DNA of 33,149 nt, from positions 1 through 33,149 of the forward strand of contig JACMJO010000523.1 in the NCBI GenBank assembly GCA_014380605.1. The letters are read 5' to 3'. Shown piece after piece: positions 9,000 through 11,273 of the stretch. The first letter of the stretch is position 1. Each line of letters starts with the position of its first letter. The notes under the pieces are model-generated. The model was given only the letters and a program-made list of their open reading frames with translations. It was not told the origin of the DNA and did no database searches. The DNA is from Fimbriimonadaceae bacterium. GTDB taxonomy: Bacteria; Armatimonadota; Fimbriimonadia; Fimbriimonadales; Fimbriimonadaceae. The translations under genes and the position numbers were made by a program.

Positions 9000-9497
9000 A
9001 TGTCGGAACGGCTTTGGGCTCCCTGGAGAATGACCTACATTGAGCAACCTCTGACCGGCACCGGAGAGATCAATATTTTCGTCGATCTCCCGGCTCAAGA
9101 CGATGATCGGGAAAATCTCATCTTGCATCGAGGCAAGACGGCGTTCGTCATGCTCAACGCCTTCCCTTATACGAATGGCCATCTGCTGATCGCGCCCTAT
9201 CGTCAAACACCTGACTTGGACGACCTGAACGACGACGAACTGCTGGAGATCAACCAGCTCTTGGCGGCAGGCGTTCGGTGGGTTCGTCAAGCCTATCGGC
9301 CCGATGGCTTCAATGTCGGCATCAACATGGGGCGAGCGGCGGGCGCGGGCATTCCGAACCATATCCATTGGCACATCGTTCCGCGCTGGAATGGAGATAC
9401 CAACTTCATGACCACCGTGGGAGAGGTTCGAGTACTTCCCCAAACCCTTGCGGACAGCTACGACCGCCTAAAGCAAATCGCCGATGCAGACGTTTGA
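9000..9497 (+). CDS. HIT family (histidine triad) protein
   Basis: MSERLWAPWRMTYIEQ; FVMLNAFPYTNGHLLIAPYRQ; HIHWHIVPRWNGDTNFM (HxHxH triad). ATG at 9000. Confidence 0.95.
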   Translation: MSERLWAPWRMTYIEQPLTGTGEINIFVDLPAQDDDRENLILHRGKTAFVMLNAFPYTNGHLLIAPYRQTPDLDDLNDDELLEINQLLAAGVRWVRQAYRPDGFNVGINMGRAAGAGIPNHIHWHIVPRWNGDTNFMTTVGEVRVLPQTLADSYDRLKQIADADV

Positions 9498-10089
9498 GGA
9501 ATTGCGCCTGGCCTCGCTGAGCTGTGTTGCCTGTCCCTTAGCGGAAAGGCGTACCAACGTTGTCTTTGGCGAAGGCAATCCTCAATCGCCGCTGGTCTTG
9601 GTTGGAGAGGGACCGGGGGAGCAAGAGGATAATACGGGACGGCCGTTTGTTGGCCGTGCGGGGCAACTGCTGGATAAAGCGCTTGCCGACAATGGCCTGG
9701 ACAGGGAAAAGGTTTACATCACCAACACTGTCAAGTGCCGAGCGGCAGATTGGTCCACGGGCAAGCCTCAGAATCGCCCCCCGACGCCAGAAGAGACCGA
9801 GGCGTGTCGGCGGTGGCTCATTCCACAACTTGGGTCCATCGCGCCCAAGGTGATCCTGTGCATCGGCGCTCCTAGCGCAAAGAACTTGATCAAGAGGAAT
9901 TTTCAGATCACCAAGGAACGTGGACTTTACTTCCCCTGCGAGTTCGCCAAGACCGCCATCGCCACCCTCCACCCGTCCTACATCCTGCGCCAGCAGAATG
10001 TAAATCGGGACGACGGAGGGTATTCGCTATTGGTAGCGGATATTGCGAAGGCATGGGCGGCGGCGGTTAGGTTGGCTGAGAGACTGTAG
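9484..10089 (+). CDS. family 4 uracil-DNA glycosylase (Fe-S type)
   Basis: CVACPLAERRTNVVFGEG; VGEGPGEQEDNTGRPFVGRAGQLLD; YITNTVKCR; HPSYILR; spaced Cys residues. Overlaps the HIT gene end by 14 nt. Confidence 0.93.
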   Translation: MQTFEELRLASLSCVACPLAERRTNVVFGEGNPQSPLVLVGEGPGEQEDNTGRPFVGRAGQLLDKALADNGLDREKVYITNTVKCRAADWSTGKPQNRPPTPEETEACRRWLIPQLGSIAPKVILCIGAPSAKNLIKRNFQITKERGLYFPCEFAKTAIATLHPSYILRQQNVNRDDGGYSLLVADIAKAWAAAVRLAERL

Positions 10090-10203
10090 CTGGGGAATGA
10101 AATGCCTGCCGATGCCACCACTAGGCATTCTGCTCTAGCCATCACCCGGCTTTGCAATCCAGTCGTCCAAGAGTTCCCCGCACCAGCGGCTCGGAATAAA
10201 CCC

Positions 10204-10287
10204 ATGAGTATGACCACCATTCTTATCATCGTCTTGATCATCGTCCTTCTCGGCGGCGGCGGTTTCTATATGCGGGGACGCCGGTAG
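10204..10287 (+). CDS. 27-aa predicted membrane peptide, copy 1
   Basis: MSMTTILIIVLIIVLLGGGGFYMRGRR*; a near-identical second ORF follows immediately. Confidence 0.7.
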   Translation: MSMTTILIIVLIIVLLGGGGFYMRGRR

Positions 10288-10289
10288 CT

Positions 10290-10373
10290 ATGGATCTCAC
10301 TACCATTCTCATCATCGTCGTGATTATCCTCCTCCTCGGCGGAGGCGGCTTTTACTGGCGCGGAAGGCGTTAA
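10290..10373 (+). CDS. 27-aa predicted membrane peptide, copy 2
   Basis: MDLTTILIIVVIILLLGGGGFYWRGRR*; ATG two nt after the copy 1 stop; too short to appear in the ORF track. Confidence 0.7.
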   Translation: MDLTTILIIVVIILLLGGGGFYWRGRR

Positions 10374-10478: not shown

Positions 10479-11273
10479 ATGTTGGGAAAGACTTTTAGAG
10501 GAGTTTGCGTTGTCGGATTGATGATTGGAGCGATCCATTCGCTTTATGCCCAGACTGTTGTCTCAAGTAACTACGCCCAAAACTTTGACGGTCTGGCCTC
10601 ATCAGGGTTGACAAACACTTGGACACAAGATGCCTCTATTTCCGAATGGTGGGCCTACCGATTTCCAGCTTCGCCAGGGAATGCCTGGTTCGATGTCACA
10701 AACTACATTGCCAATGACGGCAACCTCGCCAATGGTTCTCTCTACAGCTTTGGCCAGACAGGCAGTTCCGAGCGTGCGCTTGGGTCTATCGGATCGGGAA
10801 ACACGGCAAGCGGCGACTTTCGCTACGGCACCGGCTTCACGAACGGCTTCGCCTCCGCGATTACGTCACTTTCCATCTCGTATCGGGGCGAGACTTGGAG
10901 GGTAGGTACAGCCACAAACTCAAACAACGTCGACTTCCAATACAGCCTAACTGCGACCGGAGTCAACGATAATGAGGCCTCTTGGATCGACTTCGACGGC
11001 TTGGACTTCGCACAGACCATTTCTGCCGTTCCTGGCCCACAAAATGGCAATGCGAATTTTGTCTTGAAATCAGACACGATCAACGCCCTTTCAATCTCTG
11101 TTGGATCGACAATCTGGATTCGGTGGACCGATATCGATCATGACGGAGCCGATCATGGTTTAGCCATCGACGATCTCAATGCGTCCTTTACCACCCAGCC
11201 TGTTCCAGAGCCGGCTTCGATGGTCGCGCTTGGACTGGGAGCATTGGCCCTAATGAGAAGGAAGCGACGGTAG
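10479..11273 (+). CDS. PEP-CTERM sorting-domain protein
   Basis: N-terminal signal peptide and C-terminal VPEPASMVALGLGALALMRRKRR. Confidence 0.9.
   Translation: MLGKTFRGVCVVGLMIGAIHSLYAQTVVSSNYAQNFDGLASSGLTNTWTQDASISEWWAYRFPASPGNAWFDVTNYIANDGNLANGSLYSFGQTGSSERALGSIGSGNTASGDFRYGTGFTNGFASAITSLSISYRGETWRVGTATNSNNVDFQYSLTATGVNDNEASWIDFDGLDFAQTISAVPGPQNGNANFVLKSDTINALSISVGSTIWIRWTDIDHDGADHGLAIDDLNASFTTQPVPEPASMVALGLGALALMRRKRR

Follow-up and report, generated by a model that had tools for sequence, protein, structure and literature searches.

Tandem 27-residue membrane peptides in a Fimbriimonadaceae genome belong to a small-protein family in at least seven phyla, with sigma-EcfG promoter motifs before most alphaproteobacterial members

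Introduction

Small membrane proteins associated with stress in bacteria are very small and hydrophobic, are encoded by stand-alone genes and are often left unannotated. Many single-span proteins of 25-50 aa act as accessory subunits or regulators of membrane complexes, and tandem or repeated copies are common in type I toxin loci. For much of the general stress regulon of Alphaproteobacteria, no function is known. The sigma factor EcfG is exclusive to Alphaproteobacteria (PMC3892343), and its consensus in Sphingomonas melonis is GGAAC-N17..20-GTT (PMC6599016).

Among the described peptides of comparable size, DinQ from Escherichia coli is reported to be a toxic single-transmembrane peptide of the inner membrane with the antisense RNAs agrA and agrB (PMC3567139). 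SEP6 of Sinorhizobium meliloti is under 30 aa, has a predicted transmembrane helix, was found in a membrane-containing fraction and is conserved in Hyphomicrobiales (PMC10117765). The closest described family by sequence is DUF3309 (PF11752), an uncharacterized family of two-helix membrane peptides. Here, we describe a pair of peptide genes in a 33,149-nt stretch of DNA from a Fimbriimonadaceae bacterium (Armatimonadota; hereafter the window), and the family to which they belong.

The tandem ORF pair

Two ORFs of 27 codons plus stop lie on the forward strand of the window, copy 1 at 10204..10287 (MSMTTILIIVLIIVLLGGGGFYMRGRR) and copy 2 at 10290..10373 (MDLTTILIIVVIILLLGGGGFYWRGRR). They are separated by 2 nt and have a period of 86 nt, and an independent repeat search returned the same 86-nt repeat. 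The proteins are identical at 22/27 residues and the DNA at 63/84 positions; the 21/84 bases that differ are distributed over codon positions 1/2/3 as 6/2/13 (third-position excess, p = 0.007). Coordinates, repeat search and protein identity therefore bear out the back-to-back arrangement proposed in a sequence-only reading of this DNA, and the two ORFs are confirmed as genuine genes of a tiny protein family. The same reading proposed purifying selection: between the copies, the NG86 estimates are dN 0.16 and dS 1.0, values that are suggestive for the pair by itself at such a short length and become convincing at the level of the family (see below).

The frame of copy 1 is open farther 5', giving a 61-aa ORF from 10102, and contains an alternative internal start at ATG 10210 (MTTIL...), a start type used by several Armatimonadota homologues. 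As homologues measure 25-31 aa, the short form is favored. Copy 2 starts 2 nt past the stop of copy 1 and has no space for a promoter of its own, so that a bicistronic message is likely; the two copies are probably co-transcribed and perhaps translationally coupled.

These two are the only convincing copies in the genome. Over the core positions of the DNA, copy 2 matches copy 1 at 53/66 and some homologues from other genomes at 55/66. Copy 2 is thus no nearer to copy 1 than to some of its homologues, so that either the duplication is not recent or the histories of the copies are separate. Among the matches listed, the pair in the window is the only intact tandem one; in a metagenome-assembled genome (MAG) of the same family, Fimbriimonadaceae, a second, degenerate copy lies 146 nt on (L005/L010). 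The tandem arrangement is therefore local, accessory and exceptional rather than family-defining.

Distribution and conservation of the family

At least about 110 homologues of 25-31 aa were found in at least seven phyla, with the family consensus M(D/S)xTTILIIVLILLLGGGG[FWY]YxRGR; a degenerate DNA pattern for LLGGGG..xRGR contributed at least about 100 further loci in named genomes. According to the record titles, from which the phylum of some MAGs was read, the taxa are Alphaproteobacteria, Acidobacteriota, Actinomycetota, Chloroflexota, Dormibacterota, Deltaproteobacteria/Myxococcota and Armatimonadota. The claim of small membrane peptides thus stands, with homologues well beyond the window; the wide spread, like the kinship with DUF3309 and the link to general stress described below, lay outside what the sequence-only reading could see.

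The distribution is sporadic. The peptide is present in 14/291 Armatimonadota genomes, that of the window included, and in 5/199 genomes from the order to which Ensifer sp. Root278 belongs, and it was not detected in two congeners of the window's genome, one of them 99% complete. Taken together, this indicates a dispensable, accessory gene. In the 11 genomes tested, the copies are dispersed, with one to three per genome.

Among the matches listed, start assignment left 112 family ORFs, of which 109 begin with ATG and 95 are preceded by a Shine-Dalgarno (SD)-like site. Within genera, dN/dS is 0.027/0.31 for Rhizobium, 0.017/0.35 for Mesorhizobium and 0.076/1.1 for Phyllobacterium (given as dN and dS pairs), and for most genus groups the quotient is about 0.04-0.16. 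In Rhizobium, Phyllobacterium, Mesorhizobium and Bradyrhizobium, conservation peaks inside the ORF and falls beyond its ends. The protein sequence of the family is under purifying selection; homologues exist and dN/dS is low, where the earlier reading had named missing homologues, or a dN/dS near 1 between the copies, as reasons to abandon it.

In a 35-member alignment, I, L and V exchange freely in the helix, and GGGG, R24 and R26 are invariant, an invariance that is partly built in since the collection pattern demanded both GGGG and R-G-R. Members found by protein similarity, together with a GGG variant in S. meliloti, show that the tolerance is slightly wider than the pattern.

The sequences are of low complexity, and hydrophobic plus glycine codons might by composition or chance give look-alike ORFs; a tblastn search of plasmid and phage sequences, with the 27-28 aa peptides as queries and the low-complexity filter on, gave no match. 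The filter probably removes peptides of this length, which would account for that result, and DNA queries did recover plasmid copies of the gene. The strong third-position bias, the length of 25-31 aa, the ATG starts, the SD-like sites and the promoters upstream all speak against an artefact, and chance matches to the pattern in unrelated frames are easily distinguished. Both the dN/dS values of the family and the enrichment of promoters presented below contradict this explanation and leave it scarcely credible.

Family members are usually left unannotated. The genome of the window itself carries no annotation; annotated records of rhizobial plasmids mostly lack a gene under the homologous match, and the literature that we searched for the peptide motifs and for small-protein and stress subjects contained no description of the family. 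In S. meliloti 1021, a 27-aa member is encoded on pSymA at 239819-239902(-), without an annotated gene in a record that is here nearly devoid of annotation; the annotated record of pSmeSM11b likewise has no gene at its peptide copy. The RpoE2-dependent sRNA SmelA018 was considered as the transcript of the pSymA member and rejected, as it maps to 234850-234930, about 5 kb away. SEP6, compared by its description, might be a member of the family.

Promoters upstream of the family members

For the promoter analysis, 200 nt upstream of each ORF were scanned for a strict EcfG motif (GGAAC-N15..17-CGTT) and a loose one (GGAAC-N15..19-GTT), the latter close to the S. melonis consensus. Among the matches listed, the strict motif precedes 44/66 alphaproteobacterial members and 6/444 control ORFs from the same loci, and the loose motif 47/66 and 27/444, respectively. 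Fisher's test gives p = 3e-40 for the strict motif in members versus controls, a value that is overstated because it counts relatives as independent observations; the genus-level count is safer: among the matches listed, half or more of the members carry the strict motif in 11/19 genus-level groups. Most alphaproteobacterial members thus lie behind sigma-EcfG promoter motifs. The pSymA member of S. meliloti carries such a motif, GGAACCAACCTCCCTGCGGAACGTT, starting 77 nt upstream. The motif is absent upstream of the Methylocystis, Afipia, Marivita and Roseovarius members.

The 66 members include one contig labeled Woesearchaeota (L130) that lacks the motif, so that the enrichment would be no weaker without it. 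The peptide on this archaeal MAG contig is of the Rhodobacterales type (compare Roseovarius L075), and the contig is therefore probably misbinned.

Three members from Mesorhizobium that have no promoter close by (L082, L101, L129) are the second gene of a bicistron behind an EcfG promoter. At about 130-170 nt 5' of the peptide gene, these loci contain a 24-aa hydrophobic ORF, MN[SN]IIW[MLV]VGAVVIVxxILSFFGLR, with an SD-like site, placed between the EcfG-type promoter and the peptide gene. The one such ORF that was searched, that of L082, has no Pfam or NCBIfam match.

Outside Alphaproteobacteria, the loose motif occurs in 1/39 members and the strict one in 0/39, among the matches listed. The pair in the window has only degenerate look-alikes and no EcfG promoter within 200 nt upstream, and visual inspection revealed no evident stress promoter ahead of the Armatimonadota members. 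That EcfG is confined to Alphaproteobacteria fits the missing motif in the window and outside the class. As no stress promoter was recognized in the window, the function assigned there rests on homology. The promoter of the pair is presumed to lie within the leader at 10090..10203(+), between the preceding gene and copy 1; around the pair, no sigma-70-like promoter was recognized on either strand and an Rfam search gave no RNA match.

These results bear on the suggestion of the sequence-only reading that the peptides are toxin-like. Type I toxins such as DinQ, Ibs and Ldr depolarize the membrane when over-produced and are held in check by an antisense RNA; the size, the single hydrophobic helix and the basic tail of the peptides match known toxins of this type. 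However, the surroundings of the pair, which lack a sigma-70-like promoter on either strand and an Rfam match, give no positive sign of an antitoxin or antisense RNA, SD-like sites are usual in the family, and the alphaproteobacterial members, like ordinary induced genes, are preceded by a conserved stress promoter of their own. DinQ, though comparable in size and likewise single-transmembrane, differs in sequence and is under SOS control, whereas the promoters of relatives of the peptides point to general-stress control. The toxin-like part of the reading thus found no positive support, and we regard a type I toxin as unlikely.

Further upstream features were seen in single members. Two deltaproteobacterial loci (L077 and L094) have GGCATGCCGAGTGCT in common immediately before the start codon; it may be a control element that they share. 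The 5' leaders of L076 and L106 contain GC-rich inverted repeats (GTGCCACGCGCCGTGGCACG; CCGTGCCATGCATTGGCGCTGGCACGG) shortly 5' of the SD-like site, which are possible leader hairpins.

Relation to DUF3309

PF11752 has a gathering cut-off of 22.3 bits, which copy 1 just exceeds (23.1 bits) and copy 2 just misses (20.7); two relatives score 18.4 and 21.5. The match of copy 1 spans only positions 1-23 of 50 of the model, and the protein ends at residue 27. The peptides share with DUF3309 the N-terminal helix TxLLIxxLxLLLG and the character of a membrane peptide, but they are about half as long, lack the second helix and have GGGG-[FWY]-[FWY]-x-RGR in place of the central loop WPxSRxWGYxPSG. Given the lack of both loop and second helix, we do not count the peptides as DUF3309 members.

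A 53-aa protein of Reyranella (L162) joins the short and the two-helix forms in sequence: it starts with MSTILIIVLLVLLLGGGGYYG, a beginning close to that of the short peptides, and its GGGG-containing N-terminal half is followed by a second helix, with a full-length DUF3309 match of 50.8 bits. In the order of Ensifer, moreover, the loose EcfG motif precedes DUF3309 genes in 16/29 loci, an enrichment like that of the short peptides. Both observations make a common origin of the peptides and DUF3309 likely, as judged from short sequences, and DUF3309 thereby gains a regulatory context.

Matches to NCBIfam models (LPXTG anchor, TatA, CcoS) were weak and are best read as look-alikes with a helix and a basic tail. 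No sequence relation was found between the peptides and small stress proteins of E. coli, lmo0937/DUF5670 or the Pmp3/YqaE type. In one Armatimonadota locus (L015), a gene for a small membrane protein of the lmo0937/DUF5670 family is located about 420 nt 3' of the peptide gene.

Proposed role and genomic context

The family most likely consists of single-span inner-membrane peptides of 25-31 aa, one-helix relatives of DUF3309, and we consider it probable that they are induced by stress. The peptide would be made as the cell enters a state of general stress (heat, salt, oxidation or starvation) and would insert with its N-terminus, which is short and acidic or polar, outside and its Arg-rich tail in the cytoplasm. 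It may then act at the inner membrane face through the conserved GGGG-aromatic-aromatic-x-R-G-R segment, either by stabilizing the membrane under stress or by binding to a membrane protein. In the genome of the window, the two tandem copies would probably yield a single message; stress induction in this Armatimonadota genome is an extrapolation from the relatives.

More tentatively, and with somewhat less confidence than an even chance, we propose that these cross-phylum, annotation-invisible peptides, part of the EcfG regulon in Alphaproteobacteria and working through the conserved GGGG-aromatic-RGR motif at the membrane surface, make up a single superfamily of stress-induced membrane stabilizers together with the two-helix DUF3309 proteins. 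The general stress regulon would gain in the short peptides a conserved, defined product of 27-28 aa, which tiling-array or annotation studies could take for an intergenic region or an sRNA.

The sequence-only reading also suggested a small membrane regulator. The peptides might instead serve as an accessory subunit or regulator of one membrane complex, in the manner of CydX, KdpF or AcrZ, encoded apart from the partner. A conserved GGGG-aromatic-R-G-R segment beside a helix in which I, L and V exchange freely would fit a site for binding on the surface of the membrane. Against this, no neighboring gene was found to recur across genera around the homologues, and the sporadic presence does not suggest a core complex; we hold such a role to be rather unlikely, if less so than a toxin.

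Stress-induced membrane peptides remain our preferred reading, and the neighborhood in the window is in keeping with an accessory gene. Upstream lies a gene for a uracil-DNA glycosylase superfamily protein (9484..10089, +), which does not belong to the system. Two congeners have a convergent gene immediately after the glycosylase gene and no peptide there; from its translation, this convergent gene reads as a dihydroorotate dehydrogenase. Since a different gene follows the glycosylase there, the pair sits in a variable spot. Downstream, a PEP-CTERM-anchored protein is encoded at 10479..11273(+); it is not conserved beside homologues, and its gene occupies the stretch in which the two congeners differ in gene order. 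Plausible family members are also found on four IMG/VR viral contigs (L141, L144, L145 and L146).
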